Source: Crossaster papposus
Taxonomy: Eukaryota; Echinodermata; Asteroidea; Velatida; Solasteridae
Assembly (NCBI GenBank): GCA_037893245.1
Contig: JBAIAA010000506.1
Coordinates: 1,797,001 to 1,861,000, forward strand
Direction: 5' to 3'
DNA length: 64,000 bases
The notes beneath the pieces are model-generated. The model was not told where the DNA came from and did not search any database. It saw only the letters and a program-made list of their open reading frames with translations. This document shows, piece after piece, positions 4,811 to 34,900 of the stretch (its first letter is position 1; every line of letters starts with the position of its first letter). The translations under genes were made by a program, and so were the position numbers.

Positions 4811-5006
4811 GTCCTGAAATTATCATTTTTGACATTATTATTGACATCATTTTTGACATCATTTTTGACATCATTTTTGACATCATTTTTGACATCATTT
4901 TTGACTGTAAGACTGAACATTTATAATGCACACTTCTTTCCCTTAACATATTTAACTCGAGGGCTTGTTCCGACATCAGGTGTCTATTTCTGTCCTGAAA
5001 TTATCA

Positions 5007-5177
5007 TTTTTGACATCATTTTTGACATCATTTTTGACATCATTTTTGACATCATTTTTGACATCATATTTGACATCATTTTTGACATCGTTTTTGACAT
5101 CATTTTTGACATCATTTTTGACATCATTTTTGACATCATTTTTGACATCATTTTTGACATCATTTTGACATCATTTT
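5007..5177 (+). repeat. Long 12-bp minisatellite array
   Basis: Homologous to 1,954-2,113, with one more 12-bp unit. Same internal landmarks (CATATTTGACATC, GACATCG, an 11-bp unit, TTTTCGACTG). The offset between the two copies grows from 3,053 before the array to 3,065 after it, a direct view of a one-unit gain or loss. Confidence 0.92.
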
Positions 5178-7127: not shown

Positions 7128-7310
7128 TTTTTGACATCATTTTTGACATCATTTTTGACATCATTTTTGACATCATTTTTGACATCATTTTTGACATCAT
7201 ATTTGACATCATTTTTGACATCGTTTTTGACATCATTTTTGACATCATTTTTGACATCATTTTTGACAATATTTTTGACATCATTTTTGACATCATTTTG
7301 ACATCATTTT
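7128..7310 (+). repeat. Long 12-bp minisatellite array
   Basis: About 15 units with the shared CATATTTGACATC and GACATCG landmarks plus a GACAATATT unit. The left linker here reads CTTTCCTGAAATT. It is followed after one 67-bp monomer by a homogeneous array of eight units (7,416-7,511) ending GAATATAAGACTG. Duplicated at 12,414-12,596. Confidence 0.92.
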
Positions 7311-8841: not shown

Positions 8842-9443
8842 ATGCACACTTCTTTCCCTTAACATATTTAACTCGAGGGCTTGTTCCGACATCAGGTGTT
8901 TATTTCTTATGCACACTTCTTTCCCTTTACATATTTAACTCGAGGGCTTGTTCCGACATCAGGTGTTTATTTCTTATGCACACTTCTTTCCCTTTACATA
9001 TTTAACTCGAGGGCTTGTTCCGACATCAGGTGTTTATTTCTTATGCACACTTCTTTCCCTTTACATATTTAACTCGAGGGCTTGTTCCGACATCAGGTGT
9101 TTATTTCTTATGCACACTTCTTTCCCTTTACATATTTAACTCGAGGTCTTGTTCAGACATCGGGGGTTTATTTCTTATGCACACTTCTTTCCCTTAACAT
9201 ATTTAACTCGAGGGCTTGTTTCGTCATCAGGTGTTTATTTCTTATGCACACTTCTTTCCCTTTACATATTTAACTCGAGGGCTTGTTCCGACCTCAGGTG
9301 TTTATTTCTGATGCACACTTCTTTCCTTTTACATATTTAACTCGAGGGCTTGTTCCGACATCAGGTGTTTATTTCTGATGCACACTTCTTTCCCTTTACA
9401 TATTTAACTCGAGGGCTTGTTCCGACATCAGGTGTTTATTTCT
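8842..9443 (+). repeat. Run of nine 67-bp monomers
   Basis: Homologous to the ten-monomer run at 4,143-4,810 but lacking the ACGTATTT monomer, so the offset drops from 4,700 to 4,633 inside it. This is a clean loss (or gain) of one monomer. Copied again at 14,128-14,729. Confidence 0.92.
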
Positions 9444-11708
9444 GTCCTGAAATTATCATTTTTGACATTATTATTGACATCATTTTTGACATCATTTTTG
9501 ACATCATTTTTGACATCATTTTTGACATTATTTTTGACTGTAAGACTGAACATTTATAATGCACACTTCTTTCCCTTAACATATTTAACTCGAGGGCTTG
9601 TTCCGACATCAGGTGTCTATTTCTGTCCTGAAATTATCATTTTTGACATCATTTTTGACATCATTTTTGACATCATTTTTGACATCATTTTTGACATCAT
9701 ATTTGACATCATTTTTGTCATCGTTTTTGACATCATTTTTGACATCATTTTTGACATCATTTTTGACATCATTTTTGACATCATTTTTGACATCATTTTG
9801 ACATCATTTTCGACTGTAAGACTGAAAATGTATAATGCACACTTCTTTCCCTTAACATATTTAACTCGAGGGCTTGTTCCGACATCAGGTGTCTATTTCT
9901 GTCCTGAAATTATCATTTTTGACATCATTTTTGACATCATTTTTGACATCATTTTTGAATGTAAGACTGAAAATTTATAAAGCACACTTTTTTCCCCTAA
10001 CATATTTAACTCGAGGGCTTGTTCCGACATCAGGTGTCTATTTCTGTCCTGAAATTATCATTTTTGACATCATTTTTGACATCATTTTTTATATCATTTT
10101 TTTACATCATTTTTTACATCATTTTTTACATCATTTTTTACATCATTTTTGACTGTAAGACTGAAAATTTATAATGCACACTTCTTTCCCTTAACATATT
10201 TAACTCGAGGGCTTGTTCCGACATCAGGTGTCTATTTCTGTCCTGAAATTATCCTTTTTGACATCATTTTTGACATCATTTTTTACATCATTTTTTACAT
10301 CATTTTTGACTGTAAGACTGAAAATTTAAAATGCACACTTCTTTCCCTTAACATATTTAACTCGAGGGCTTGTTCCGACATCAGGACACTTATTTCCCTT
10401 TACATATTTAACTCGAGGGCTTGTTCCGACATCATGTGTCTATTTCTGTCCTGAAATTATCATTTTTGACATCATTTTTGACATCATTTTTGACATCATT
10501 TTTGACATCATTTTTGACATCATTTTTGAATGTAAGACTGAAAATTTATAATGCACACTTCTTTCCCTTAACATATTTAACTCGAGGGCTTGTTCCGACA
10601 TCAGGTGTCTATTTCTGTCCTGAAATTATCATTTTTGACATCATTTTTTACATCATTTTTGACATCATTTTTGACATCATTTTTGACATCATTTTTGAAT
10701 GTAAGACTGAAAATTTATAAAGCACACTTCTTTCCCTTAACATATTTAACTCGAGGGCTTGTTCCGTCATCAGGTGTTTATTTCTTATGCACATTTCTTT
10801 CCCTTTACATATTTAACTCGAGGGCTTGTTCCGACCTCAGGTGTTTATTTCTTATCCACACTTCTTTCCCTTTACATATTTAACTCGAGGGCTTGTTCCG
10901 ACATCAGGTGTTTATTTCTTATGCACACTTCTTTCCCTTTACATATTTAACTCGAGGGCTTGTTCCGACATCAGGTGTTTATTTCTGTCCTGAAATTATC
11001 ATTTTTGACATCATTTTTGACATCATTTTTGACTGTAAGACTGAACATTTATAATGCACCCTTCTTTCCCTTAACATATTTAACTCGAGGGCTTGTTCCG
11101 ACATCAGGACACTTCTTTCCATTTACAAATTTAACTCGAGGGCTTGTTCCGACATCAGGTGTTTATTTCTTTTGCACTCTTTTTTCCCTTTACATATTTA
11201 ACTCGAGGGCTTGTTCCGACATCAGGTGTTTATTTCTTATGCACACTTCTTTCCCTTAATGTATTTAACTCGAGGGCTTGTTCCGACATCAGGTGTTTAT
11301 TTCTTATGCAGACTTCTTTCCCTTTACATATTTAACTCGAGGTCTTGTTCAGACATCAGGTGTTTATTTCTTATGCACACTTCTTTCCCTTTACATATTT
11401 AACTCGAGGGCTTGTTCCGACATCAGGTGTTTATTTCTTATGCACACTTCTTTCCACTTACATATTTAACTCGAGGGCTTCTTCCGACATCAGGTGTTTA
11501 TTTCTGTCCTGAAATTATCATTTTTGACATCATTTTTGACATCATTTTTGACATCATTTTTGACATCATTTTTGACATCATTTTTGACATCATTTTTGAC
11601 ATTATTTTTGACTGTAAGACTGAACATTTATAATGCACACTTCTTTCCCTTAACATATTTAACTCGAGGGCTTGTTCCGACATCAGGTGTCTATTTCTGT
11701 CCTAAAAT

Positions 11709-14700
11709 TATCATTTTTGACATCATTTTTGACATCATTTTTGACTGTAAGACTGAACATTTATAATGCACCCTTCTTTCCCTTAACATATTTAACTCGA
11801 GGGCTTGTTCCGACATCAGGACACTTCTTTCCATTTACAAATTTAACTCGAGGGCTTGTTCCGACATCAGGTGTTTATTTCTTATGCACTCTTTTTTCCC
11901 TTTACATATTTAACTCGAGGGCTTGTTCCGACATTAGGTGTTTATTTCTTATGCACACTTCTTTCCCTTAATGTATTTAACTCGAGGGCTTGTTCCGACA
12001 TCAGGTGTTTATTTCTTATGCAGACTTCTTTCCCTTTACATATTTAAATCGAGGTCTTGTTCAGACATCAGGTGTTTATTTCTTATGCACACTTCTTTCC
12101 CTTTACATATTTAACTCGAGGGCTTGTTCCGACATCAGGTGTTTATTTCTTATGCACACTTCTTTCCCTTTACATATTTAACTCGAGGGCTTCTTCCGAC
12201 ATCAGGTGTTTATTTCTGTCCTGAAATTATCATTTTTGACATCATTTTTGACATCATTTTTGACATCATTTTTGACATCATTTTTGACATCATTTTTGAC
12301 ATCATTTTTGACTGTAAGACTGAACATTTATAATGCACACTTCTTTCCCTTAACATATTTAACTCGAGGGCTTGTTCCGACATCAGGTGTCTATTTCTTT
12401 CCTGAAATTATCATTTTTGACATCATTTTTGACATCATTTTTGACATCATTTTTGACATCATTTTTGACATCATTTTTGACATCATATTTGACATCATTT
12501 TTGACATCGTTTTTGACATCATTTTTGACATCATTTTTGACATCATTTTTGACAATATTTTTGACATCATTTTTGACATCATTTTGACATCATTTTCGAC
12601 TGTAAGACTGAAAATGTATAATGCACACTTCTTTCCCTTAACATATTTAACTCGAGGGCTTGTTCCGACATCAGGTGTCTATTTCTGTCCTGAAATTATC
12701 ATTTTTGACATCATTTTTGACATCATTTTTGACATCATTTTTGACATCATTTTTGACATCATTTTTGACATCATTTTTGACATCATTTTTGACATCATTT
12801 TTGAATATAAGACTGAAAATTTATAAAGCACACTTCTTTCCCTTAACATATTTAACTCGAGGGCTTGTTCCGACATCAGGTGTCTATTTCTGTCCTGAAA
12901 TGATCATTTTTGACATTATTTTTGACATCATTTTTTATATCATTTTTTACATCATTTTTTACATCATTTTTTACATCATTTTTTACATCATTTTTGACTG
13001 TAAGACTGAAAATTTATAATGCACACTTCTTTCCCTTAACATATTTAACTCGAGGGCTTGTTCCGACATCAGGTGTCTATTTCTGTCCTGAAATTATCAT
13101 TTTTGACATCATTTTTGACATCATTTTTGACTGTAAGACTGACAATTTCTAATGCACACTTCTTTCCCTTTACATATTTAACTCGAGGGCTTGTTCCGAC
13201 ATCAGGTGTCTATTTCTGTCCTGAAATTATCATTTTTGACAAAATTTTTGACATAATTTTTGGCATAATTTTTGACATCATTTTTGACATCATTTTTTAC
13301 ATCATTTTTTACATCATTTTTTACATCATTTTTGACTGTAAGACTGAAAATTTAAAATGCACACTTCTTTCCCTTAACATATTTAACTCGAGGGCTTGTT
13401 CCGACATCAGGACACTTCTTTCCCTTTACATATTTAACTCGAGGGCTTGTTCCGACATCATGTGTCTATTTCTGTCCTGAAATTATCATTTTTGACATCA
13501 TTTTTGACATCATTTTTGACATCATTTTTGACATCATTTTTGACATCATTTTTGAATGTAAGACTGAACATTTATAATGCACACTTCTTTCCCTTAACAT
13601 ATTTAACTCGAGGGCTTGTTCCGACATCAGGTGTCTATTTCTGTCCTGAAATTATCATTTTTGACATCATTTTTGACATCATTTTTGACATCATTTTTGA
13701 CATCATTTTTGACATCATTTTTGAATGTAAGACTGACAATTTATAAAGCACACTTCTTTCCCTTAACATATTTAACTCGAGGGCTTGTTCCGTCATCAGG
13801 TGTTTATTTCTTATGCACATTTCTTTCCCTTTACATATTTAACTCGAGGGCTTGTTCCGACCTCAGGTGTTTATTTCTTATGCACACTTCTTTCCCTTTA
13901 CATATTTAACTCGAGGGCTTGTTCCGACATCAGGTGTTTATTTCTTATGCACACTTCTTTCCCTTTACATATTTAACTCGAGGGCTTGTTCCGACATCAG
14001 GTGTTTATTTCTGTCCTGAAATTATCATTTTTGACATCATTTTTTACATCATTTTTTATATCATTATTTACATCATTTTTTACATCATTTTTTACACCAT
14101 TTTTGACTGTAAGACTGAAAATTTATAATGCACACTTCTTTCCCTTAACATATTTAACTCGAGGGCTTGTTCCGACATCAGGTGTTTATTTCTTATGCAC
14201 ACTTCTTTCCCTTTACATATTTAACTCGAGGGCTTGTTCCGACATCAGGTGTTTATTTCTTATGCACACTTCTTTCCCTTTACATATTTAACTCGAGGGC
14301 TTGTTCCGACATCAGGTGTTTATTTCTTATGCACACTTCTTTCCCTTTACATATTTAACTCGAGGGCTTGTTCCGACATCAGGTGTTTATTTCTTATGCA
14401 CACTTCTTTCCCTTTACATATTTAACTCGAGGTCTTGTTCAGACATCGGGGGTTTATTTCTTATGCACACTTCTTTCCCTTAACATATTTAACTCGAGGG
14501 CTTGTTTCGTCATCAGGTGTTTATTTCTTATGCACACTTCTTTCCCTTTACATATTTAACTCGAGGGCTTGTTCCGACCTCAGGTGTTTATTTCTGATGC
14601 ACACTTCTTTCCTTTTACATATTTAACTCGAGGGCTTGTTCCGACATCAGGTGTTTATTTCTGATGCACACTTCTTTCCCTTTACATATTTAACTCGAGG

Positions 14701-16994
14701 GCTTGTTCCGACATCAGGTGTTTATTTCTGTCCTGAAATTATCATTTTTGACATTATTATTGACATCATTTTTGACATCATTTTTGACATCATTTTTGAC
14801 ATCATTTTTGACATTATTTTTGACTGTAAGACTGAACATTTATAATGCACACTTCTTTCCCTTAACATATTTAACTCGAGGGCTTGTTCCGACATCAGGT
14901 GTCTATTTCTGTCCTGAAATTATCATTTTTGACATCATTTTTGACATCATTTTTGACATCATTTTTGACATCATTTTTGACATCATATTTGACATCATTT
15001 TTGTCATCGTTTTTGACATCATTTTTGACATCATTTTTGACATCATTTTTGACATCATTTTTGACATCATTTTTGACATCATTTTGACATCATTTTCGAC
15101 TGTAAGACTGAAAATGTATAATGCACACTTCTTTCCCTTAACATATTTAACTCGAGGGCTTGTTCCGACATCAGGTGTCTATTTCTGTCCTGAAATTATC
15201 ATTTTTGACATCATTTTTGACATCATTTTTGACATCATTTTTGAATGTAAGACTGAAAATTTATAAAGCACACTTTTTTCCCCTAACATATTTAACTCGA
15301 GGGCTTGTTCCGACATCAGGTGTCTATTTCTGTCCTGAAATTATCATTTTTGACATCATTTTTGACATCATTTTTTATATCATTTTTTTACATCATTTTT
15401 TACATCATTTTTTACATCATTTTTTACATCATTTTTGACTGTAAGACTGAAAATTTATAATGCACACTTCTTTCCCTTAACATATTTAACTCGAGGGCTT
15501 GTTCCGACATCAGGTGTCTATTTCTGTCCTGAAATTATCCTTTTTGACATCATTTTTGACATCATTTTTTACATCATTTTTTACATCATTTTTGACTGTA
15601 AGACTGAAAATTTAAAATGCACACTTCTTTCCCTTAACATATTTAACTCGAGGGCTTGTTCCGACATCAGGACACTTATTTCCCTTTACATATTTAACTC
15701 GAGGGCTTGTTCCGACATCATGTGTCTATTTCTGTCCTGAAATTATCATTTTTGACATCATTTTTGACATCATTTTTGACATCATTTTTGACATCATTTT
15801 TGACATCATTTTTGAATGTAAGACTGAAAATTTATAATGCACACTTCTTTCCCTTAACATATTTAACTCGAGGGCTTGTTCCGACATCAGGTGTCTATTT
15901 CTGTCCTGAAATTATCATTTTTGACATCATTTTTTACATCATTTTTGACATCATTTTTGACATCATTTTTGACATCATTTTTGAATGTAAGACTGAAAAT
16001 TTATAAAGCACACTTCTTTCCCTTAACATATTTAACTCGAGGGCTTGTTCCGTCATCAGGTGTTTATTTCTTATGCACATTTCTTTCCCTTTACATATTT
16101 AACTCGAGGGCTTGTTCCGACCTCAGGTGTTTATTTCTTATCCACACTTCTTTCCCTTTACATATTTAACTCGAGGGCTTGTTCCGACATCAGGTGTTTA
16201 TTTCTTATGCACACTTCTTTCCCTTTACATATTTAACTCGAGGGCTTGTTCCGACATCAGGTGTTTATTTCTGTCCTGAAATTATCATTTTTGACATCAT
16301 TTTTGACATCATTTTTGACTGTAAGACTGAACATTTATAATGCACCCTTCTTTCCCTTAACATATTTAACTCGAGGGCTTGTTCCGACATCAGGACACTT
16401 CTTTCCATTTACAAATTTAACTCGAGGGCTTGTTCCGACATCAGGTGTTTATTTCTTTTGCACTCTTTTTTCCCTTTACATATTTAACTCGAGGGCTTGT
16501 TCCGACATCAGGTGTTTATTTCTTATGCACACTTCTTTCCCTTAATGTATTTAACTCGAGGGCTTGTTCCGACATCAGGTGTTTATTTCTTATGCAGACT
16601 TCTTTCCCTTTACATATTTAACTCGAGGTCTTGTTCAGACATCAGGTGTTTATTTCTTATGCACACTTCTTTCCCTTTACATATTTAACTCGAGGGCTTG
16701 TTCCGACATCAGGTGTTTATTTCTTATGCACACTTCTTTCCACTTACATATTTAACTCGAGGGCTTCTTCCGACATCAGGTGTTTATTTATGTCCTGAAA
16801 TTATCATTTTTGACATCATTTTTGACATCATTTTTGACATCATTTTTGACATCATTTTTGACATCATTTTTGACATCATTTTTGACATTATTTTTGACTG
16901 TAAGACTGAACATTTATAATGCACACTTCTTTCCCTTAACATATTTAACTCGAGGGCTTGTTCCGACATCAGGTGTCTATTTCTGTCCTAAAAT
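11709..16994 (+). repeat. 5,286-bp higher-order repeat, copy 2
   Basis: Nearly identical to 6,423-11,708. In the stretches compared by eye I found one substitution, C at 11,504 versus A at 16,790. A third, partial copy continues to about 18,030, now with one 67-bp monomer missing near 17,270 (offset falls to 5,219), one 12-bp unit fewer, and private changes such as GTGATTATTTC (17,157) and TTCCGTTTAC (17,183). Confidence 0.9.
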
Positions 16995-19330
16995 TATCAT
17001 TTTTGACATCATTTTTGACATCATTTTTGACTGTAAGACTGAACATTTATAATGCACCCTTCTTTCCCTTAACATATTTAACTCGAGGGCTTGTTCCGAC
17101 ATCAGGACACTTCTTTCCATTTACAAATTTAACTCGAGGGCTTGTTCCGACATCAGGTGATTATTTCTTATGCACTCTTTTTTCCGTTTACATATTTAAC
17201 TCGAGGGCTTGTTCCGACATTAGGTGTTTATTTCTTATGCACACTTCTTTCCCTTAATGTATTTAACTCGAGGTCTTGTTCAGACATCAGGTGTTTATTT
17301 CTTATGCACACTTCTTTCCCTTTACATATTTAACTCGAGGGCTTGTTCCGACATCAGGTGTTTATTTCTTATGCACACTTCTTTCCCTTTACATATTTAA
17401 CTCGAGGGCTTCTTCCGACATCAGGTGTTTATTTCTGTCCTGAAATTATCATTTTTGACATCATTTTTGACATCATTTTTGACATCATTTTTGACATCAT
17501 TTTTGACATCATTTTTGACATCATTTTTGACTGTAAGACTGAACATTTATAATGCACACTTCTTTCCCTTAACATATTTAACTCGAGGGCTTGTTCCGAC
17601 ATCAGGTGTCTATTTCTTTCCTGAAATTATCATTTTTGACATCATTTTTGACATCATTTTTGACATCATTTTTGACATCATTTTTGACATCATTTTTGAC
17701 ATCATATTTGACATCATTTTTGACATCGTTTTTGACATCATTTTTGACATCATTTTTGACATCATTTTTGACAATGTTTTTGACATCATTTTTGACATCA
17801 TTTTGACATCATTTTCGACTGTAAGACTGAAAATGTATAATGCACACTTCTTTCCCTTAACATATTTAACTCGAGGGCTTGTTCCGACATCAGGTGTCTA
17901 TTTCTGTCCTGAAATTATCATTTTTGACATCATTTTTGACATCATTTTTGACATCATTTTTGACATCATTTTTGACATCATTTTTGACATCATTTTTGAC
18001 ATCATTTTTGAATATAAGACTGAAAATTTATAAAGCACACTTTTTTCCCTTAACATATTTAACTCGAGGGCTTGTTCCGTCATCAGGTGTTTATTTCTCA
18101 TGCACATTTCTTTCCCTTTACATATTTAACTCGAGGGCTTGTTCCGACCTCAGGTGTTTATTTCTTATGCACACTTCTTTCCCTTTACATATTTAACTCG
18201 AGGGCTTGTTCCGACATCAGGTGTTTATTTCTTATGCACACTTCTTTCCCTTTACATATTTAACTCGAGGGCTTGTTCCGACATCAGGTGTTTATTTCTG
18301 TCCTGAAATTATCATTTTTGACATCATTTTTGACATCATTTTTGACATCATTTTTGACTGTAAGACTGAACATTTATAATGCACACTTCTTTCCCTTAAC
18401 ATATTTAACTCGAGGGCTTGTTCCGACATCAGGACACTTCTTTCCATTTACAAATTTAACTCGAGGGCTTGTTCCGACATCAGGTGTTTATTTCTTATGC
18501 ACACTTCTTTCCCTTAACGTATTTAACTCGAGGGCTTGTTCCGACATCAGGTGTTTATTTCGTATGCAGACTTCTTTCCCTTACATATTTAACTCGAGGT
18601 CTTGTTCAGACATCAGGTGTTTATTTCTTATGCACACTTCTTTCCCTTTACATATTTAACTCGACGGCTTGTTCCGACATCAGGTGTTTATTTCTTATGC
18701 ACACTTCTTTCCCTTTACATATTTAACTCGAGGGCTTGTTCCGACCTCAGGTGTTTATTTCTTATGCACACTTCTTTCCCTTAATGTATTTAACTCGAGG
18801 GCTTGTTCCGACATCAGGTGTTTATTTCTTATGCAGACTTATTTCCCTTTACATATTTAACTCGAGGTCTTGTTCAGACATCAGGTGTTTATTTCTTATG
18901 CACACTTCTTTCCCTTTACATATTTAACTCGAGGGCTTGTTCCGACATCAGGTGTTTATTTCTTAAGCACACTTCTTTCCCTTTACATATTTAACTCGAG
19001 GGCTTCTTCCGACATCAGGTGTTTATTTCTGTCCTGAAATTATCATTTTTGACATCATTTTTGACATCATTTTTGACATCATTTTTGACATCATTTTTGA
19101 CTGTAAGACTGAACATTTATAATGCACACTTCTTTCCCTTAACATATTTAACTCGAGGGCTTGTTCCGACATCAGGTGTCTATTTCTGTCCTAAAATTAT
19201 CATTTTTGACATCATTTTTGACATCATTTTTGACTGTAAGACTGAACATTTATAATGCACCCTTCTTTCCCTTAACATATTTAACTCGAGGGCTTGTTCC
19301 GACATCAGGACACTTCTTTCCATTTACAAA
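14354..19330 (+). repeat. 4,977-bp higher-order repeat, copy 1
   Basis: Overlaps the end of the 5,286-bp duplication, so the two duplication events are layered. The left junction is visible as the change from ACATATTT (14,351 region) to ACAAATTT (19,328 region), after which the copies match. It contains the private variants GTGATTATTTC, GACAATGTTTTTG, a 66-bp monomer reading TTTCCCTTACATA (near 18,578) and CTCGACGGC (18,662). Confidence 0.88.
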
Positions 19331-22300
19331 TTTAACTCGAGGGCTTGTTCCGACATCAGGTGTTTATTTCTTATGCACACTTCTTTCCCTTTACATATTT
19401 AACTCGAGGTCTTGTTCAGACATCGGGGGTTTATTTCTTATGCACACTTCTTTCCCTTAACATATTTAACTCGAGGGCTTGTTTCGTCATCAGGTGTTTA
19501 TTTCTTATGCACACTTCTTTCCCTTTACATATTTAACTCGAGGGCTTGTTCCGACCTCAGGTGTTTATTTCTGATGCACACTTCTTTCCTTTTACATATT
19601 TAACTCGAGGGCTTGTTCCGACATCAGGTGTTTATTTCTGATGCACACTTCTTTCCCTTTACATATTTAACTCGAGGGCTTGTTCCGACATCAGGTGTTT
19701 ATTTCTGTCCTGAAATTATCATTTTTGACATTATTATTGACATCATTTTTGACATCATTTTTGACATCATTTTTGACATCATTTTTGACATTATTTTTGA
19801 CTGTAAGACTGAACATTTATAATGCACACTTCTTTCCCTTAACATATTTAACTCGAGGGCTTGTTCCGACATCAGGTGTCTATTTCTGTCCTGAAATTAT
19901 CATTTTTGACATCATTTTTGACATCATTTTTGACATCATTTTTGACATCATTTTTGACATCATATTTGACATCATTTTTGTCATCGTTTTTGACATCATT
20001 TTTGACATCATTTTTGACATCATTTTTGACATCATTTTTGACATCATTTTTGACATCATTTTGACATCATTTTCGACTGTAAGACTGAAAATGTATAATG
20101 CACACTTCTTTCCCTTAACATATTTAACTCGAGGGCTTGTTCCGACATCAGGTGTCTATTTCTGTCCTGAAATTATCATTTTTGACATCATTTTTGACAT
20201 CATTTTTGACATCATTTTTGAATGTAAGACTGAAAATTTATAAAGCACACTTTTTTCCCCTAACATATTTAACTCGAGGGCTTGTTCCGACATCAGGTGT
20301 CTATTTCTGTCCTGAAATTATCATTTTTGACATCATTTTTGACATCATTTTTTATATCATTTTTTTACATCATTTTTTACATCATTTTTTACATCATTTT
20401 TTACATCATTTTTGACTGTAAGACTGAAAATTTATAATGCACACTTCTTTCCCTTAACATATTTAACTCGAGGGCTTGTTCCGACATCAGGTGTCTATTT
20501 CTGTCCTGAAATTATCCTTTTTGACATCATTTTTGACATCATTTTTTACATCATTTTTTACATCATTTTTGACTGTAAGACTGAAAATTTAAAATGCACA
20601 CTTCTTTCCCTTAACATATTTAACTCGAGGGCTTGTTCCGACATCAGGACACTTATTTCCCTTTACATATTTAACTCGAGGGCTTGTTCCGACATCATGT
20701 GTCTATTTCTGTCCTGAAATTATCATTTTTGACATCATTTTTGACATCATTTTTGACATCATTTTTGACATCATTTTTGACATCATTTTTGAATGTAAGA
20801 CTGAAAATTTATAATGCACACTTCTTTCCCTTAACATATTTAACTCGAGGGCTTGTTCCGACATCAGGTGTCTATTTCTGTCCTGAAATTATCATTTTTG
20901 ACATCATTTTTTACATCATTTTTGACATCATTTTTGACATCATTTTTGACATCATTTTTGAATGTAAGACTGAAAATTTATAAAGCACACTTCTTTCCCT
21001 TAACATATTTAACTCGAGGGCTTGTTCCGTCATCAGGTGTTTATTTCTTATGCACATTTCTTTCCCTTTACATATTTAACTCGAGGGCTTGTTCCGACCT
21101 CAGGTGTTTATTTCTTATCCACACTTCTTTCCCTTTACATATTTAACTCGAGGGCTTGTTCCGACATCAGGTGTTTATTTCTTATGCACACTTCTTTCCC
21201 TTTACATATTTAACTCGAGGGCTTGTTCCGACATCAGGTGTTTATTTCTGTCCTGAAATTATCATTTTTGACATCATTTTTGACATCATTTTTGACTGTA
21301 AGACTGAACATTTATAATGCACCCTTCTTTCCCTTAACATATTTAACTCGAGGGCTTGTTCCGACATCAGGACACTTCTTTCCATTTACAAATTTAACTC
21401 GAGGGCTTGTTCCGACATCAGGTGTTTATTTCTTTTGCACTCTTTTTTCCCTTTACATATTTAACTCGAGGGCTTGTTCCGACATCAGGTGTTTATTTCT
21501 TATGCACACTTCTTTCCCTTAATGTATTTAACTCGAGGGCTTGTTCCGACATCAGGTGTTTATTTCTTATGCAGACTTCTTTCCCTTTACATATTTAACT
21601 CGAGGTCTTGTTCAGACATCAGGTGTTTATTTCTTATGCACACTTCTTTCCCTTTACATATTTAACTCGAGGGCTTGTTCCGACATCAGGTGTTTATTTC
21701 TTATGCACACTTCTTTCCACTTACATATTTAACTCGAGGGCTTCTTCCGACATCAGGTGTTTATTTATGTCCTGAAATTATCATTTTTGACATCATTTTT
21801 GACATCATTTTTGACATCATTTTTGACATCATTTTTGACATCATTTTTGACATCATTTTTGACATTATTTTTGACTGTAAGACTGAACATTTATAATGCA
21901 CACTTCTTTCCCTTAACATATTTAACTCGAGGGCTTGTTCCGACATCAGGTGTCTATTTCTGTCCTAAAATTATCATTTTTGACATCATTTTTGACATCA
22001 TTTTTGACTGTAAGACTGAACATTTATAATGCACCCTTCTTTCCCTTAACATATTTAACTCGAGGGCTTGTTCCGACATCAGGACACTTCTTTCCATTTA
22101 CAAATTTAACTCGAGGGCTTGTTCCGACATCAGGTGATTATTTCTTATGCACTCTTTTTTCCGTTTACATATTTAACTCGAGGGCTTGTTCCGACATTAG
22201 GTGTTTATTTCTTATGCACACTTCTTTCCCTTAATGTATTTAACTCGAGGTCTTGTTCAGACATCAGGTGTTTATTTCTTATGCACACTTCTTTCCCTTT

Positions 22301-24307
22301 ACATATTTAACTCGAGGGCTTGTTCCGACATCAGGTGTTTATTTCTTATGCACACTTCTTTCCCTTTACATATTTAACTCGAGGGCTTCTTCCGACATCA
22401 GGTGTTTATTTCTGTCCTGAAATTATCATTTTTGACATCATTTTTGACATCATTTTTGACATCATTTTTGACATCATTTTTGACATCATTTTTGACATCA
22501 TTTTTGACTGTAAGACTGAACATTTATAATGCACACTTCTTTCCCTTAACATATTTAACTCGAGGGCTTGTTCCGACATCAGGTGTCTATTTCTTTCCTG
22601 AAATTATCATTTTTGACATCATTTTTGACATCATTTTTGACATCATTTTTGACATCATTTTTGACATCATTTTTGACATCATATTTGACATCATTTTTGA
22701 CATCGTTTTTGACATCATTTTTGACATCATTTTTGACATCATTTTTGACAATGTTTTTGACATCATTTTTGACATCATTTTGACATCATTTTCGACTGTA
22801 AGACTGAAAATGTATAATGCACACTTCTTTCCCTTAACATATTTAACTCGAGGGCTTGTTCCGACATCAGGTGTCTATTTCTGTCCTGAAATTATCATTT
22901 TTGACATCATTTTTGACATCATTTTTGACATCATTTTTGACATCATTTTTGACATCATTTTTGACATCATTTTTGACATCATTTTTGAATATAAGACTGA
23001 AAATTTATAAAGCACACTTTTTTCCCTTAACATATTTAACTCGAGGGCTTGTTCCGTCATCAGGTGTTTATTTCTCATGCACATTTCTTTCCCTTTACAT
23101 ATTTAACTCGAGGGCTTGTTCCGACCTCAGGTGTTTATTTCTTATGCACACTTCTTTCCCTTTACATATTTAACTCGAGGGCTTGTTCCGACATCAGGTG
23201 TTTATTTCTTATGCACACTTCTTTCCCTTTACATATTTAACTCGAGGGCTTGTTCCGACATCAGGTGTTTATTTCTGTCCTGAAATTATCATTTTTGACA
23301 TCATTTTTGACATCATTTTTGACATCATTTTTGACTGTAAGACTGAACATTTATAATGCACACTTCTTTCCCTTAACATATTTAACTCGAGGGCTTGTTC
23401 CGACATCAGGACACTTCTTTCCATTTACAAATTTAACTCGAGGGCTTGTTCCGACATCAGGTGTTTATTTCTTATGCACACTTCTTTCCCTTAACGTATT
23501 TAACTCGAGGGCTTGTTCCGACATCAGGTGTTTATTTCGTATGCAGACTTCTTTCCCTTACATATTTAACTCGAGGTCTTGTTCAGACATCAGGTGTTTA
23601 TTTCTTATGCACACTTCTTTCCCTTTACATATTTAACTCGACGGCTTGTTCCGACATCAGGTGTTTATTTCTTATGCACACTTCTTTCCCTTTACATATT
23701 TAACTCGAGGGCTTGTTCCGACCTCAGGTGTTTATTTCTTATGCACACTTCTTTCCCTTAATGTATTTAACTCGAGGGCTTGTTCCGACATCAGGTGTTT
23801 ATTTCTTATGCAGACTTATTTCCCTTTACATATTTAACTCGAGGTCTTGTTCAGACATCAGGTGTTTATTTCTTATGCACACTTCTTTCCCTTTACATAT
23901 TTAACTCGAGGGCTTGTTCCGACATCAGGTGTTTATTTCTTAAGCACACTTCTTTCCCTTTACATATTTAACTCGAGGGCTTCTTCCGACATCAGGTGTT
24001 TATTTCTGTCCTGAAATTATCATTTTTGACATCATTTTTGACATCATTTTTGACATCATTTTTGACATCATTTTTGACTGTAAGACTGAACATTTATAAT
24101 GCACACTTCTTTCCCTTAACATATTTAACTCGAGGGCTTGTTCCGACATCAGGTGTCTATTTCTGTCCTAAAATTATCATTTTTGACATCATTTTTGACA
24201 TCATTTTTGACTGTAAGACTGAACATTTATAATGCACCCTTCTTTCCCTTAACATATTTAACTCGAGGGCTTGTTCCGACATCAGGACACTTCTTTCCAT
24301 TTACAAA
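19331..24307 (+). repeat. 4,977-bp higher-order repeat, copy 2
   Basis: All private variants of copy 1 recur at an offset of 4,977, including GTGATTATTTC (22,134), GACAATGTTTTTG (22,747), TTTCCCTTACATA (23,555 region) and CTCGACGGC (23,639). Matching fades after about 24,350, where GCACTCTTTGTTCCC replaces GCACACTTCTTTCCC. I saw no difference between the two copies in the parts I compared. Confidence 0.88.
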
Positions 24308-24891
24308 TTTAACTCGAGGGCTTGTTCCGACATCAGGTGTTTATTTCTTATGCACTCTTTGTTCCCTTTACATATTTAACTCGAGGGCTTGTTCCGACAT
24401 CAGGTGTTTATTTCTTATGCACACTTCTTTCCCTTAATGTATTTAACTCGAGGGCTTGTTCCGACATCAGGTGTTTATTTCTTATGCAGACTTCTTTCCC
24501 TTTACATATTTAAATCGAGGTCTTGTTCAGACATCAGGTGTTTATTTCTTATGCACACTTCTTTCCCTTTACATATTTAACTCGAGGGCTTGTTCCGACA
24601 TCAGGTGTTTATTTCTTATGCACACTTCTTTCCCTTTACATATTTAACTCGAGGGCTTCTTCCGACATCAGGTGTTTATTTCTGTCCTTAAATTATCATT
24701 TTTGACATCATTTTTGACATCATTTTTGACATCATTTTTGACATCATTTTTGACATCATTTTTGACATCATTTTTGACATCATTTTTGACTGTAAGACTG
24801 AACATTTATAATGCACACTTCTTTCCCTTAACATATTTAACTCGAGGGCTTGTTCCGACATCAGGTGTCTATTTCTGTCCTGAAATTATCA

Positions 24892-25074
24892 TTTTTGACA
24901 TCATTTTTGACATCATTTTTGACATCATTTTTGACATCATTTTTGACATCATTTTTGACATCATATTTGACATCATTTTTGACATCGTTTTTGACATCAT
25001 TTTTGACATCATTTTTGACATCATTTTTGACAATATTTTTGACATCATTTTTGACATCATTTTGACATCATTTT
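24892..25074 (+). repeat. 12-bp array, 288-bp duplication copy 1
   Basis: Long 12-bp array with the CATATTTGACATC, GACATCG and GACAATATT landmarks and the 11-bp unit near its end. Together with one flanking 67-bp monomer and the linkers it forms a 288-bp unit that is immediately repeated. Confidence 0.92.
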
Positions 25075-25179
25075 CGACTGTAAGACTGAAAATGTATAAT
25101 GCACACTTCTTTCCCTTAACATATTTAACTCGAGGGCTTGTTCCGACATCAGGTGTCTATTTCTGTCCTGAAATTATCA

Positions 25180-25362
25180 TTTTTGACATCATTTTTGACA
25201 TCATTTTTGACATCATTTTTGACATCATTTTTGATATCATTTTTGACATCATATTTGACATCATTTTTGACATCGTTTTTGACATCATTTTTGACATCAT
25301 TTTTGACATCATTTTTGACAATATTTTTGACATCATTTTTGACATCATTTTGACATCATTTT
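25180..25362 (+). repeat. 12-bp array, 288-bp duplication copy 2
   Basis: Exact offset of 288 bp from the preceding array, with all landmarks retained and one private change (TTTTTGATATCA near 25,232). The next array (25,468-25,571) is homogeneous, about nine TTTTTGACATCA units, and matches the one at 7,416-7,511 in context. Confidence 0.92.
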
Positions 25363-25467
25363 CGACTGTAAGACTGAAAATGTATAATGCACACTTCTTT
25401 CCCTTAACATATTTAACTCGAGGGCTTGTTCCGACATCAGGTGTCTATTTCTGTCCTGAAATTATCA

Positions 25468-25571
25468 TTTTTGACATCATTTTTGACATCATTTTTGACA
25501 TCATTTTTGACATCATTTTTGACATCATTTTTGACATCATTTTTGACATCATTTTTGACATCATTTTTGAA
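25468..25571 (+). repeat. Homogeneous 12-bp array
   Basis: About nine near-perfect TTTTTGACATCA units, with a right linker GAATGTAAGACTG in place of GACTGTAAGACTG. This right-linker subtype precedes monomers starting AAAGCACAC and recurs throughout the left half. Confidence 0.9.
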
Positions 25572-27399
25572 TGTAAGACTGAAAATTTATAAAGCACACT
25601 TATTTCCCTTAACATATTTAACTCGAGGGCTTGTTCCGTCATCAGGTGTTTATTTCTCATGCACATTTCTTTCCCTTTACATATTTAACTCGAGGGCTTG
25701 TTCCGACCTCAGGTGTTTATTTCTTATGCACACTTCTTTCCCTTTACATATTTAACTCGAGGGCTTGTTCCGACATCAGGTGTTTATTTCTTATGCACAC
25801 TTCTTTCCCTTTACATATTTAACTCGAGGGCTTGTTCCGACATCAGGTGTTTATTTCTGTCCTGAAATTATCATTTTTGACATCATTTTTTACATCATTT
25901 TTGACATCATTTTTGACTGTAAGACTGAACATTTATAATGCACACTTCTTTCCCTTAACATATTTAACTCGAGGGCTTGTTCCGACATCAGGACACTTCT
26001 TTCCATTTACAAATTTAACTCGAGGGCTTGTTCCGACATCAGGTGTTTATTTCTTATGCACACTTCTTTCCCTTAACGTATTTAACTCGAGGGCTTGTTC
26101 CGACATCAGGTGTTTATTTCGTATGCAGACTTCTTTCCCTTTACATATTTAACTCGAGGTCTTGTTCAGACATCAGGTGTTTATTTCTTATGCACACTTC
26201 TTTCCCTTTACATATTTAACTCGACGGCTTGTTCCGACATCAGGTGTTTATTTCGTATGCACACTTCTTTCCCTTTACATATTTAACTCGAGGGCTTGTT
26301 CCGACCTCAGGTGTTTATTTCTGATGCACACTTCGTTCCTTTTACATATTTAACTCGAGGGCTTGTTCCGACATCAGGTGTTTATTTCTTATGCACACTT
26401 CTTTCCCTTTACATATTTAACTCGAGGGCTTCTTCCGACATCAGGTGTTTATTTCTGTCCTGAAATTATCATTTTTGACATCATTTTTGACATCATTTTT
26501 GACATCATTTTTGACATCATTTTTGACATAATTTTTGACATCATTTTTGACATCATTTTTGACTGTAAGACTGAACATTTATAATGCACACTTCTTTCCC
26601 TTAACATATTTAACTCGAGGGCTTGTTCCGACATCAGGTGTCTATTTCTGTCCTGAAATTATCATTTTTGACATCATTTTTGACATCATTTTTGACATCA
26701 TTTTTGACATCATTTTTGAATGTAAGACTGAAAATTTATAAAGCACACTTCTTTCCCTTAACATATTTAACTCGAGGGCTTGTTCCGACATCAGGTCACT
26801 ATTTCTGTCCTGAAATTATCATTTTTGACATCTTTTTTGACATCATTTTTGACTGTAAGACTGAAAATTTCTAATGCACACTTCTTTCCCTTTACATATT
26901 TAACTCGAGGGCTTGTTCCGACATCAGGTGTCTATTTCTGTCCTGAAATTATCATTTTTGACATAATTTTTGACATAATTGTTGGCATAATTTTTGACAT
27001 CATTTTTGACATCATTTTTGACTTCATTTTTGACATCATTTTTGACATCATTTTTGACTGTAAGACTGAAAATTTAAAATGCACACTTCTTTCCCTTAAC
27101 ATATTTAACTCGAGGGCTTGTTCCGACATCAGGACACTTCTTTCCCTTTACAAATTTAACTCGAGCGCTTGTTCTGACATCAGGTGTTTATTTCTTATGC
27201 ACACTTCTTTCCCTTTACATATTTAACTCGAGGGCTTTTTCCGACATCAGGTGTTTATTTCTGTCCTGAAATTATCAGTTTTGACATCATTTTTGACATC
27301 ATTTTTGACATCATTTTTGACATCATTTTTGACCTCATTTTTGACATCATTTTTACATCATTTTTTACATCATTTTTTACATCATTTTTTACATCATTT

Positions 27400-30300
27400 T
27401 TGACTGTAAATTAAAAATGCACACTTCTTTCCCTTAACATATTTAACTCGACACTCAGGACACTTCTTTCCCTCTACAAATTAAACTCGAGGGCTTGTTC
27501 CGACATCAGGTGTTTATTTCTTATGCACACTTCTTTCCCTTTACATATTTAACTCGAGGGCTTGTTCCGACATCAGGTGTTTATTTCTTATGCACACTTC
27601 TTTCCCTTTACATATTTAACTCGAGGGCTTGTTCCGACATCAGGTGTTTATTTCGTATGCACACTTCTTTCCCTTAACATATTTAACTCGAGGGCTTGTT
27701 CCGTCATCAGGTGTTTATTTATTATGCACACTTCTTTCCCTTTACATATTTAACTCGAGGGCTTGTTCCGACCTCAGGTGTTTATTTCTTATGCACACTT
27801 CTTTCCCTCAACATATTTAACTCGAGGGCTTGTTCCGTCATCAGGTGTTTATTTCTTATGCACATTTCTTTCCCTTTACATATTTAACTCGAGGGCTTGT
27901 TCCGACATCAGGTGTTTATTTCTGTCCGGAAATTAACATTTTTGACATCATTTTTGACATCATTTTTGACATCATTTTTGACTGTAAGACTGAACATTTA
28001 TAATGCACACTTCTTTCCCTTAACATATTTAACTCGAGGGCTTGTTCCGACATCAGGACACTTCTTTCCATTTACAAATTTAACTCGAGGGCTTGTTCCG
28101 ACATCATGTGTTTATTTCTTATGCACTCTTCTTTCCCTTTAAATATTTAACTCGAGGGCTTGTTCCGACATCAGGTGTTTATTTCTTATGCACCCTTCTT
28201 TCCCTTTACATATTTAACTCTAGGGCTTGTTCCGACATCAGGTGTTTATTTCTTATGCACACTTCTTTTCCTTTACATATTTAACTCGAGGGCTTGTTCC
28301 GACATCAGGTGTCTATTTCTGTCCTGAAATTATCATTTTTGACAAAATTTTTGACATAATTTTTGGCATAATTGTTGACATCATTTTTGACATCATTTTT
28401 GACATCATTTTTGACATCATTTTTGACTGTAAGACTGAAAATTAAAAATGCACACTTCTTTCCCTTAACATATTTAACTCGAGGGCTTGTTCCGACATCA
28501 GGACACTTCTTTCCCTTTACAAATTTAACTCGAGCGCTTGTTCCGACATCAGGTGTTTATTTCTTATGCACACTTCTTTCCCTTTACATATTTAACTCGA
28601 GGGCTTGTTCTGACATCAGGTGTTTATTTCTTATGCACACTTCTTTCCCTTTACATATTTAACTCGAGGGCTTGTTCCGACATCAGGTGTTTATTTCTTA
28701 TGCACACTTCTTTCCCTTTACATATTTAACTCGAGGGCTTGTTCCGACATCAGGTGTTTATTTCTGTCCTGAAATTAACATTTTTGAAATCATTTTTGAC
28801 ATCATTTTTGACATCATTTTTGACATCATTTTTGACTGAACATTTATAATGCACATTTCTTTCCCTTTACATATTTAACTCGAGGGCTTGTTCCGACCTC
28901 AGGTGTTTATTTCTTATGCACACTTCTTTCCCTTTACATATTTAACTCGAGGGCTTGTTCCGACATCAGGTGTTTATTTCTTATGCACACTTCTTTCCCT
29001 TCACATATTTAACTCGAGGGCTTGTTCCGACATCAGGTGTTTATTTCTGTCCGGAAATTAGCATTTTTGACATCATTTTTGACATCATTTTTGACATCAT
29101 TTTTGACTGTAAGACTGAACATTTATAATGCACACTTCTTTCCCTTAACATATTTAACTCGAGGGCTTGTTCCGACATCAGGACACTTCTTTCCATTTAC
29201 AAATTTAACTCGAGGGCTTGTTCCGACATCATGTGTTTATTTCTTATGCACTCTTCTTTCCCTTTAAATATTTAACTCGAGGGCTTGTTCCGACATCAGG
29301 TGTTTATTTCTTATGCACACTTCTTTCCCTTTACATATTTAACTCGAGGGCTTGTTCCGACATCAGGTGTTTATTTCTTATGCACACTTCTTTCCCTTTA
29401 CATATTTAACTCGAGGGCTTGTTCCGACATCAGGTGTTTATTTCTGATGCACACTTCTTTCCCTTTACATATTTAACTCGAGGGCTTGTTCCGACATCAG
29501 GTGTTTATTTCTGTCCTGAAATTAACATTTTTGAAATCATTTTTGACATCATTTTTGACATCATTTTTGACTGTAAGACTGAAAATGACTAATGCACACT
29601 TCTTTCCCTTAACATAATTAAGTCGAGGGCTTGTTCCGACATCAGGTGTCTATTTCTGTCCTGAAATTATCATTTTTGACATCATTTTTGACATCATTTT
29701 TGACATCATTTTTGACATCATTTTTGACATCATTTTTGAATGTAAGACTGAAAATTTATAATGCACACTTCTTTCCCTTAACATATTTAACTCGAGGGCT
29801 TGTTCCGACATCAGGTGTCTATTTCTGTCCTGAAAGTATCATTTTTGACATCATTTTTGACATCATTTTTGACATCATTTTTGACCTCATTTTTGACAGC
29901 ATTTTTGACATCATTTTTGACATCATTTTTTACATCATTTTTTACATCATTTTTGACTGTAAATTAAAAATGCACACTTCTTTCCCTTAACATATTTAAC
30001 TCGAGGGCTTGTTCCGACATCAGGACACTTCTTTCCCTTTACAAATTAAACCCGAGGGCTTGTTCCGACATCAGGTGTTTATTTCTTATGCACACTTCTT
30101 TCCCTTTACATATTTAACTCGAGGGCTTGTTCCGACATCAGGTGTTTATTTCTTATGCACACTTCTTTCCCTTAACATATTTAACTCGAGGGCTTGTTCC
30201 GTCATCAGGTGTTTATTTCTTATGCACACTTCTTTCCCTTTACATATTTAACTCGAGGGCTTGTTCCGACCTCAGGTGTTTATTTCTTATGCACACTTCT

Positions 30301-31845
30301 TTCCCTTAACATATTTAACTCGAGGGCTTGTTCTGTCATCAGGTGTTTATTTCTTATGCACATTTCTTTCCCTTTACATATTTAACTCGAGGGCTTGTTC
30401 CGACCTCAGGTGTTTATTTCTTATGCACACTTCTTTCCCTTTACATATTTAACTCGAGGGCTTGTTCCGACATCAGGTGTTTATTTCTTATGCACACTTC
30501 TTTCCCTTTACATATTTAACTCGAGGGCTTGTTCCGACATCAGGTGTTTATTTCTGCCCTGAAATTATCATTTTTGACATCATTTTTGACATCATTTTTG
30601 ACATCATTTTTGACTGTAAGACTGAACATTTATAATGCACACTTCTTTCCCTTAACATATTTAACTCGAGGGCTTGTTCCGACATCAGGACACTTCTTTC
30701 CATTTACAAATTTAACTCGAGGGCTTGTTCCGACATCATGTGTTTATTTCTTATGCACTCTTCTTTCCCTTTACATATTTAACTCGAGGGCTTGTTCCGA
30801 CATCAGGTGTTTATTTCTGATGCACACTTCTTTCCCTTTACATATTTAACTCTAGGGCTTGTTCCGACATCAGGTGTTTATTTCTTATGCACACTTCTTT
30901 CCCTTTACATATTTAACTCGAGGGCTTGTTCCGACATCAGGTGTCTATTTCTGTCCTGAAATTATCATTTTTGACATAATTTTTGACATAATTTTTGGCA
31001 TAATTGTTGACATCATTTTTGACATCATTTTTGACATCATTTTTGACATCATTTTTGACATCATTTTTGACTGTAAGACTGAAAATTTAAAATGCACACT
31101 TCTTTCCCTTAACATATTCAACTCGAGGGCTTGTTCCGACATCAGGACACTTCTTTCCCTTTACAAATTTAACTCGAGCGCTTGTTCCGACATCAGGTGT
31201 TTATTTCTTATGCACACTTCTTTCCCTTTACATATTTAACTCGAGGGCTTGTTCCGACATCAGGTGTTTATTTCTGTCCTGAAATTATCAGTTTTGACAT
31301 CATTTTTGACATCATTTTTGACATCATTTTTGACATCATTTTTGACTGTAAGACTGAACATTTATAATGCACACTTCTTTCCCTTAACATATTTAACTCG
31401 AGGGCTTGTTCCGACATCAGGTGTCTATTTCTGTCCTGAAATTATCTTTTTTGACATCATTTTTGACATCATTTTTGACATCATTTTTGACATCATTTTT
31501 GACATCATTCTTGACATCATTTTTGACATCATTTTTGACATCATTTTTGACATCAATTTTGACATCATTTTTGACTGTAAGACTGAAAATGTCTAATGCA
31601 CACTTCTTTCCCTTAACATATTTAACTCGAGGGCTTGTTCCGACATCAGGACACTTCTTTCCCTTTACAAATTAAACTCGAGGGCTTGTTCCGACATCAG
31701 GTGTTTATTTCTTATGCACACTTCTTTCCCTTTACATATTTAACTCGAGGGCTTGTTCCGACATCAGGTGTTTATTTCTTATGCACACTTCTTTCCCTTT
31801 ACATATTTAACTCGAGGGCTTGTTCCGACATCAGGTGTTTATTTC
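27400..31845 (+). repeat. Diverged terminal part of the composite satellite
   Basis: The last 4.4 kb before the monomer switch is less regular than the kilobase duplications upstream. It has shortened right linkers (CTGTAAATTAAAAATGC near 27,404 and 29,955; GACTGAACATT near 28,834), a collapsed monomer CTCGACACTCAGG (27,447), left linkers GTCCGGAAATT (27,924, 29,049) and GCCCTGAAATT (30,555), CTCTAG in place of CTCGAG (28,217, 30,850), and CCGACATCATGTG monomers (28,101, 29,226, 30,731) that resemble the right-half form. The last 12-bp array is at about 31,454-31,573. Confidence 0.88.
27897..29021 (+). repeat. 1,125-bp diverged repeat, copy 1
   Basis: The segment starting with the GTCCGGAAATT linker, a short 12-bp array, a 51-bp monomer and a CATCATGTG monomer with GCACTCTTC and CTTTAAATATTT returns 1,125 bp downstream (29,022 onward). 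Similarity fades after about 28,180. A further relative starts near 30,529. Confidence 0.8.
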
Positions 31846-31876
31846 TTATGCACACTTCTTTCCCTTAACATATTTC
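31846..31876 (+). other. Junction: first 31-bp monomer
   Basis: The first monomer lacking the 36-bp segment. It keeps CCCTTAAC, the form typical of left-half monomers that follow a 12-bp module. The monomer just before it still has the left-half form CCGACATCAGGTG. The next 67-bp copy, whose segment is at 31,969, already has the right-half form CCCACATCATGTG. The switch of monomer length and of diagnostic bases therefore happens within about 150 bp. Confidence 0.9.
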
Positions 31877-31968
31877 TTATGCACACTTCTTTCCCTTTAC
31901 ATATTTCTTATGCACACTTCTTTCCCTTTACATATTTCTTATGCACACTTCTTTCCCTTTACATATTT

Positions 31969-34900
31969 AACTCGAGGGCTTGTTCCCACATCATGTGTTT
32001 ATTTCTTATGCACACTTCTTTCCCTTTACATATTTAACTCGGGGGCTTGTTCCCACATCATGTGTTTATTTATTATGCACACTTCTTTCCCTTTACATAT
32101 TTCTTATGCACACTTCTTTCCCTTTACATATTTAACTCGAGGGCTTGTTCCCACATCATGTGTTTATTTATTATGCACACTTCTTTCCCTTTACATATTT
32201 CTTATGCACACTTCTTTCCCTTTACATATTTCTTATGCACACTTCTTTCCCTTTACATATTTCTTATGCACACTTCTGTCCCTTTACATATTTCTTATGC
32301 ACACTTCTTTCCCTTTACATATTTCTTATGCACACTTCTTTCCCTTTACATATTTCTTATGCACACTTCTTTCCCTTTACATATTTCTTATGCACACTTC
32401 TTTCCCTTTACATATTTCTTATGCACACTTCTTTCCCTTTACATATTTCTTATGCACACTTCTTTTCCTTTACATATTTCTTATGCACACTTCTTTCCCT
32501 TTACATATTTCTTATGCACACTTCTTTCCCTTTACATATTTCTTATGCACACTTATTTCCCTTTACATATTTCTTATGCACACTTCTTTCCCTTTACATA
32601 CTTCTTATGCACACTTCTTTCCCTTTACATATTTCTTATGTACACTTCTTTCCCTTTACATATTTCTTATGCACACTTCTTTCCCTTCACATATTTCTTA
32701 TGCACACTTCTTTCCCTTTACATATTTCTTATGCACACTTCTTTCCCTTTACATATTTCTTATGCACACTTCTTTCCCTTTACATATTTCTTATGCACAC
32801 TTCTTTCCCTTTACATATTTCTTATGCACACTTCTTTCCCTTTACATATTTCGTATGCACACTTCTTTCCCTTTACATATTTCTTATGCACACTTCTTTC
32901 CCTTTACATATTTCTGATGCACACTTCTTTCCCTTTACATATTTCTTATGCACACTTCTTTCCCTTTACATATTTCTTATGCACACTTCTTTCCCTTTAC
33001 ATATTTCTTATGCACACTTCTTTCCCTTTACATATTTCTTATGCACACTTCTTTCCCTTTACATATTTATTATGCACACTTCTTTCCCTTTACATATTTC
33101 TTATGCACACTTCTTTCCCTTTACATATTTCTTATGCACACTTCTTTCCCTTTACATATTTCTTATGCACACTTCTTTCCCTTTACATATTTCTTATGCA
33201 CACTTCTTTCCCTTTACATATTTCTTATGCACACTTCTTTCCCTTTACATATTTCTTATGCACACTTATTTCCCTTTACATATTTCTTATGCACACTTCT
33301 TTCCCTTTACATATTCCTTATGCACACTTCTTTCCCTTTACATATTTCTTATGCACACTTCTTTCCCTTTACATATTTCTTATGCACACTTCTTTCCCTT
33401 TACATATTTCTTATGCACACTTCTTTCCCTTTACATATTTCTTATGCACACTTCTTTCCCTTTACATATTTCTTATGCACACTTCTTTCCCTTTACATAT
33501 TTAACTCGAGGGCTCGTTCCCACATCATGTGTTTATTTCGTATGCACACTTCTTCCCCTTTACATAGTTAACTCGAGGGCTTGTTCCCACATCATGTGTT
33601 TATTTCTTATGCACACTTCTTTCCCTTTACATATTTCTTATGCACACTTCTTTCCCTTTACATATTTCTTATGCACACTTCTTTCCCTTTACATATTTAA
33701 CTCGAGGGCTTGTTCCCACATCATGTGTTTATTTCTTATGCACACTTCTGTCCCTTTACATATTTCTTATGCACACTTCTTTCCCTTTACATATTTCTTA
33801 TGCACACTTCTTTCCCTTTACATATTTCTTATGCACACTTCTTTCCCTTTACATATTTCTTATGCACACTTCTTTCCCTTTACATATTTCTTATGCACAC
33901 TTCTTTCCCTTTACATATTTCTTATGCACACTTCTTTCCCTTTACATATTTCTTATGCACACTTCTTTCCCTTTACATATTTCTTATGCACACTTCTTTC
34001 CCTTTACATATTTCTTATGCACACTTCTTTCCCTTTACATATTTCTTATGCACACTTCTTTCCCTTTACATATTTCTTATGCACACTTCTTTCCCTTTAC
34101 ATACTTCTTATGCACACTTCTTTCCCTTTACATACTTCTTATGCACACTTCTTTCCCTTTACATATTTCTTATGCACACTTCTTTCCCTTTACATATTTC
34201 TTATGCACACTTCTTTCCCTTTACATATTTCTTATGCACACTTCTTTCCCTTTACATATTTCTTATGCACACTTCTTTCCCTTTACATATTTCTTATGCA
34301 CACTTCTTTCCCTTTACATATTTCTTATGCACACTTCTTTCCCTTTACATATTTCGTATGCACACTTCTTTCCCTTTACATATTTCTTATGCACACTTCT
34401 TTCCCTTTACATATTTCTTATGCACACTTCTTTCCCTTTACATATTTCTTATGCACACTTCTTTCCCTTTACATATTTCTTATGCACACTTCTTTCCCTT
34501 TACATATTTCTTATGCACACTTCTTTCCCTTTACATATTTCTTATGCACACTTCTTTCCCTTTACATATTTATTATGCACACTTCTTTCCCTTTACATAT
34601 TTCTTATGCACACTTCTTTCCCTTTACATATTTCTTATGCACACTTCTTTCCCTTTACATATTTCTTATGCACACTTCTTTCCCTTTACATATTTCTTAT
34701 GCACACTTCTTTCCCTTTACATATTTCTTATGCACACTTCTTTCCCTTTACATATTTCTTATGCACACTTCTTTCCCTTTACATATTTCTTATGCACACT
34801 TCTTTCCCTTTACATATTTCTTATGCACACTTCTTTCCCTTTACATATTTCTTATGCACACTTCTTTCCCTTTACATATTTCTTATGCACACTTCTTTCC

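Follow-up and report, generated by a model that had tools for sequence, protein, structure and literature searches.

The abrupt change of satellite monomer length in this stretch of the Crossaster papposus genome probably marks where two arrays of one satellite family, each homogenised on its own, meet, an array of 31-bp units (class R) standing against an older array of 67-bp units and 12-bp modules (class L). The window analyzed is the whole stretch of 64,000 nucleotides, C506:1,797,001-1,861,000, and the genome searched comprises 1.02 Gb in 1,841 contigs. COX1 on its small contig C1841 reads as an open frame of 518 aa with genetic codes 4, 5, 9 and 13 and of 612 aa with code 14; codes 9 and 14 alone give Asn for AAA at conserved Asn sites, with AGR read as Ser and TGA as Trp, a usage shared by echinoderms and flatworms, and the protein resembles that of an echinoderm, the probable source of the satellite. 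Tandem-repeat and core scans showed the satellite to span the whole window, in which the following features were placed.

1-31,844, + strand: L-class satellite array, with units of 67 bp and of 51 bp as well as longer ones that contain 12-bp modules
25,000-31,844, + strand: edge of the L array nearest the seam, less homogenised (300-bp tiles, mean best identity about 0.96)
31,825-31,835, + strand: last left-diagnostic stretch, CCGACATCAGG
31,836-31,875, + strand: seam interval, containing the first 31-bp unit
31,876-64,000, + strand: R-class satellite array of 31-bp units with about 5% 67-bp units, whose tails have C42/T49 in 51 of 51
31,946-32,177, + strand: first R-type 67-bp units past the seam, with cores at 31,946, 32,013 and 32,111

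Both arrays are built on a 31-bp core, CTTATGCACACTTCTTTCCCTTTACATATTT, whose consensus is common to L and R, and the 67-bp unit is this core followed by a 36-bp tail. Class L alternates between runs of 67-bp units on the one hand and, on the other, 51-bp units and longer units that include 12-bp modules (ATCATTTTTGAC) and a linker; its tail consensus ends in CCGACATCAGG. In class R, the 31-bp cores follow one another directly head to tail, with 67-bp units scattered at the low frequency given above. Units were assigned to classes by diagnostic sites and by the sharing of identical monomers. Among the papers listed in our literature searches none names this satellite, and we make no claim that it is unpublished.

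Fitting a maximum-likelihood change point to the core spacings places the switch after the core at 31,786 and before the one at 31,853, with a log-likelihood gain of 539 compared with no change. Spacings of 30-33 bp account for 0 of 299 on the left compared with 919 of 975 (94.3%) on the right, where the remainder are 51 of 67 bp, four of 44 bp and one of 21 bp; by block count, 912 of the 963 cores on the right have no tail. Exact copies of ATCATTTTTGAC number 517 on the left and 0 on the right. The sequence-only reading of this DNA had described just such an abrupt switch at about 31,846, with no 31-bp monomer to its left, 31-bp monomers making up some 95% of the cores to its right and the 12-bp modules vanishing there, and our counts confirm this description, the position being correct to one base (the first 31-mer occupies 31,845-31,875). 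Because the left-diagnostic bases end at 31,835 and the 31-mer array runs from 31,876 onward (CATATTTCTTATG has 0 exact matches on the left and 811 on the right), the seam lies within 31,836-31,875. The first 67-mers beyond it carry CCCACATCATG tails, and their 67-67-31-67 order recurs at 35,138, 44,102 and 47,409. The window contains discrete layers with a sharp border, as in a layered centromeric array of the alpha-satellite type.

The two classes are further distinguished by substitutions at positions 42 and 49 of the tail (numbering from CACTTC). Within the window, L tails read G/G at these positions in 286 of 298 cases and G/T in 12, the combination of C42 and T49 being found in 0 of 298, as against all 51 of the R tails. 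Elsewhere on C506, the 309 L tails comprise 294 G/G, 12 G/T, 2 G/A and 1 C/G, and the 53 R tails comprise 49 C/T, 3 G/T and 1 T/T. A third class, M, was recognized on C543, C1023 and C244 (60 kb read), where 31-mers are interspersed with left-type 67-mers that make up about one-third of the units on C543 and about one-fifth on the other two; no exact 12-bp module was present in the 60 kb read, and the tails are G/G in 319/321, 58/58 and 52/54 cases, respectively. Many identical 67-mers are common to L and M, and none is common to the 131 distinct 67-mers of L and M and the 36 of R. A join of two separate arrays is less comfortable with the single substitutions: T49 occurs without C42 on both sides (the G/T tails, 12/298 and 12/309 in L and 3/53 in R outside the window), and C42 alone occurs once in the 309 L tails and twice in the 321 tails of C543, which means that each of the two is recurrent, older or the product of exchange. 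A second derived tail (C39, G42, T49), found beside the R tail in R-like arrays on C1323 (11 of 21 67-mers) and C1128 (3 of 14), is a sister lineage sharing T49. The distribution of these tails suggests that T49 arose first and C42 later.

Sampling along the contig placed the two classes in a simple order. No core sequence was found in six samples from C506 1-1,150,600. Class L runs from 1.20 to 1.829 Mb as sampled; the 17 samples outside the window (33 kb, 1.20-1.797 Mb) were all L and contained no 30-33-bp spacings. From 1.861 Mb to the end of the contig (2,052,035), all six samples were R arrays of 31-mers. One L/R boundary was present in samples spread over 850 kb of C506, with L towards the non-satellite side, and the orientation was + in every satellite sample from the stretches taken between 1.20 and 2.05 Mb. 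Long arrays of one orientation, extending as sampled over hundreds of kilobases, and units that are closer within a class than between classes identify this as satellite DNA with concerted evolution, the mixed array on C473 being the exception to the second property.

The degree of homogenisation differs along the arrays. When 300-bp tiles were matched within the L sequence read, without gaps so that indels depress the values, the best identity in L was 0.989 over the first 5 kb of the window and 0.998-0.9996 at 5,000-25,000, and fell at the edge nearest the seam to the mean listed above. R tiles scored 0.99-1.00 from the seam to 35 kb, with some farther right down to 0.71. Diversity among 67-mers in L was 0.052 in the window, 0.042 elsewhere on C506 and 0.022 on C158 (n = 20); in R it was 0.024 in the window, 0.007 to its right and 0.013-0.014 on C1217 and C1285; and in M it was 0.003-0.012. 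The L values are inflated by several unit types, and the C158 value for L lies below that for R in the window, which counts against reading the difference as support for a two-array boundary. Exact internal duplicates reach 5,085 bp in L and 1,700 bp in R, where they show many different shifts and no single fixed higher-order unit is evident. The longest pair in L lies at window 6419-11503 and 11705-16789 (shift 5,286), and another, of 5,026 bp, at 14353-19378 and 19330-24355 (shift 4,977); these two are either very recent large duplications or assembly copies.

The same seam is present on a second contig. By exact-match chaining, C1654 is identical to window 21,894-44,275 over 22,382 bases, seam included, with 9.9 kb of L before the seam, 12.4 kb of R after it and 0 mismatches. 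At window 44276 (C1654 position 22383) it departs abruptly, and a 714-bp exact match to window 60148 follows; the departure reflects either an assembly branch or haplotypes that differ in length. In a search with the seam sequence, C506 and C1654 gave the only exact matches among the 40 scored of 1,090 candidate places. C1654 may be the other haplotype or a common piece of the assembly graph and is not independent proof of the seam. A rival reading is an assembly chimera, in which L and R contigs were joined by the assembler inside the shared 31-bp core. The identical core consensus of the two classes, the long exact duplicates on both sides and the abrupt departure of C1654 after so long an identity are all in keeping with such an error, whereas the recurrence of the seam without mismatch on C1654 argues against it, though the two contigs may share reads and would then not be independent. 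On balance we regard a chimera as unlikely, and the border that separates an older layer from a younger one, as judged from the assembled sequence, is probably real. A separate observation concerns contig C8 (>5.2 Mb), where a gene of the cytochrome oxidase subunit I family, free of internal stops, lies at C8:5208663-5210009 and two more COX1 matches occur; because the gene resembles bacterial cyoB, C8 probably represents a bacterial genome that was assembled along with that of the animal.

A real seam might still be the place where the 31-mer arose, by deletion in the last left 67-mer, with its copies then overrunning the right array, and the sequence-only reading had proposed that this birth junction is in view. 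The deletion relating the two units is indeed exact, and the 31-mer at the seam has the TTAAC form that is common in L units. The same form also occurs in 31-mers elsewhere, however, and its 31-mer context has 634 exact matches genome-wide; at the eight of these loci examined, R tails were present at all eight and left tails or 12-bp modules at none. We accordingly dropped TTAAC as proof of a left origin. The seam unit could derive from either side as far as its bases tell, an ambiguity that also weakens the assignment of the seam to a join of two arrays. A birth site would be expected to show parental, left-type tails beside the first short units, but those at 31,946-32,177 are CCCACATCATG tails, already derived like the rest of the 51. 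Further, 31-mers lie beside left-type 67-mers elsewhere, in class M, whose marker (31-mer, then left-type 67-mer) has 11,052 exact matches genome-wide.

The flanks of the seam point the same way. Sequence running rightward from 31,877 recurs at 44,033 and 47,340 with 100% identity over 200 bp, the values for 500 bp being 99.6 and 99.4%, and its eight best matches are all preceded by further 31-mers. The flank left of 31,846 matches L at 97-99% over 200 bp, and in its eight best places 67-mers follow. Given that the right flank elsewhere comes after 31-mers and the left flank before 67-mers, the seam interrupts both arrays partway along. When the comparison of the right flank is extended to 1,000 bp, its best ungapped match falls to 94% (at 33,411), which tells somewhat against a clean join. 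With the R sequence cut mid-array, derived tails at the seam and 31-mers beside left-type 67-mers in other arrays, the claim of a birth junction is not supported, and we consider an origin of the 31-mer at this site very improbable. The associated proposal of a founder event survives only in the wider sense that the deletion product was amplified somewhere, earlier.

The deletion itself is as the sequence-only reading described it. Removing 36 bp from the 67-bp unit, between TATTT repeats, gives the 31-bp unit with 0 mismatches and in six equivalent placements. Among simulated deletions of 10-59 bp in a tandem 67-mer, a 5-bp flanking repeat was found in 24 of 3,350 placements and a longer one in none; at six placements each these represent about four distinct deletions, so the TATTT site is among the best matched. 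Longer units are also present in the genome: on C146, non-satellite DNA encloses a four-core array of 121-bp units, C53 has units of about 194 bp, and C158 combines 121-bp with 67-bp units. Core, tail, 12-bp module and linker are all found in both the 121-bp and the ~194-bp unit. At C53:2606929-2608954, <6 kb from the contig end, the ~194-bp tandem unit has an extra segment with GGAGTTTGCGCCGACGGTGCGG. The 121-bp unit yields the 67-bp unit by a 54-bp deletion at ATTTCT (a 6-bp repeat) with 2 mismatches. A 31-mer taken straight from the 121-bp unit would require a 90-bp deletion with 1 mismatch, compared with 0 from the 67-bp unit, and is the less likely route. The 51-bp unit is the 67-bp unit minus 16 bp, with one placement and no flanking repeat, and direct repeats were thus not used in every length change. 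Since the 36-bp tail is already contained in the 121- and ~194-bp units, deletion from 67 to 31 bp is probably the direction of change and the simplest reading of the monomers, in agreement with the earlier proposal. An ancestral 31-mer that gained 36 bp by insertion (31 bp plus a 5-bp TATTT duplication) would leave an identical footprint, insertion with target-site duplication being indistinguishable from deletion between direct repeats, but we give it very little credence in view of the tail inside those longer units, one array of which has four cores in non-satellite DNA, and of the greater diversity of L than R on C506.

Across the genome, the L linker pattern has 3,983 matches, and R-type tails were found on 14 of the contigs read (C506, C1654, C1217, C1640, C1604, C1499, C1483, C1323, C1285, C1128, C12, C57, C62 and C71). 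The sequence-only reading had named 31-mers occurring widely in left-type arrays as a sign against it; class M comes close to this, with 31-mers among left-type 67-mers, whereas the L arrays read, those with 12-bp modules, contain none. Genome-wide, a left-type 67-mer stands directly next to a right-type one in 22 places (20 on C473, 2 on C1825), and the types are therefore not separate everywhere, a point against two wholly distinct arrays. By pattern search, the C473 adjacencies span C473:1185798-1400176 (214 kb), which makes this contig a candidate for a mixed or source array. Markers on C62 make a second class border likely there, since R occurs near 2 kb and the M marker is found from 155 kb onward.

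The sequence itself establishes the classes and their succession along C506, the diagnostic substitutions, the cut in mid-array and the nesting of the unit lengths. From these data we infer an order of events and a mechanism of exchange, as well as a centromeric or pericentromeric location of the arrays. Earlier and elsewhere, a 67-bp unit would have lost 36 bp between TATTT repeats, by slipped replication or single-strand annealing. The 31-bp product would then have been amplified, in class M mixed with unchanged 67-mers and in the R lineage mixed with 67-mers in which G49T had been followed by G42C. An R array may subsequently have been joined to, or expanded against, the edge of L inside the shared 31-bp core, leaving the R block of C506 on the side away from non-satellite DNA and against a poorly homogenised L edge.

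Human alpha satellite offers a parallel: Shepelev et al. (2009, PMC2729386) describe older layers flanking a younger homogenised array in (peri)centromeric DNA. As in that description, there are discrete blocks of one family, a new variant present on many contigs, and what may be a more diverse block towards non-satellite DNA with a homogenised block further in, the comparison covering one flank of the array. Unlike the layers of that description, those of this sea star differ also in unit length (67/121 versus 31 bp). Crossovers make higher-order-repeat domains and expand and homogenise them, according to Pironon et al. (2010, PMC2853522). The exact duplicates inside the arrays, up to 5.1 kb in L and 1.7 kb in R, resemble such domains, but the right-hand array, with its many different shifts, revealed none of fixed higher-order length. 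Unequal exchange is the classical model for domains of this kind. Monomer-length variants of satellites are known to arise by deletion between short direct repeats. The present case conforms, with 36 bp lost at TATTT and 54 bp at ATTTCT; it departs from known deletion variants in that two nested steps are legible in one genome, and the 51-bp unit stands outside the pattern.

A single seam of this kind is ordinary satellite turnover, unusually legible. It is an unusually clean satellite-layer border outside primates, with a deletion series that can be read from the sequence. We suggest, tentatively and as a less likely possibility, that the family shrinks stepwise from ~194/121 to 67 to 31 bp, with direct-repeat deletions at the 121-67 and 67-31 steps, each shorter unit forming an inner, younger layer and C473 being the source array of R. 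If this were true, unit length would tell the age of each layer along the chromosome, with one growth ring at the 31,876 border; if layer order tracks unit length on other chromosomes as well, unit length could be used to test the direction of array growth.
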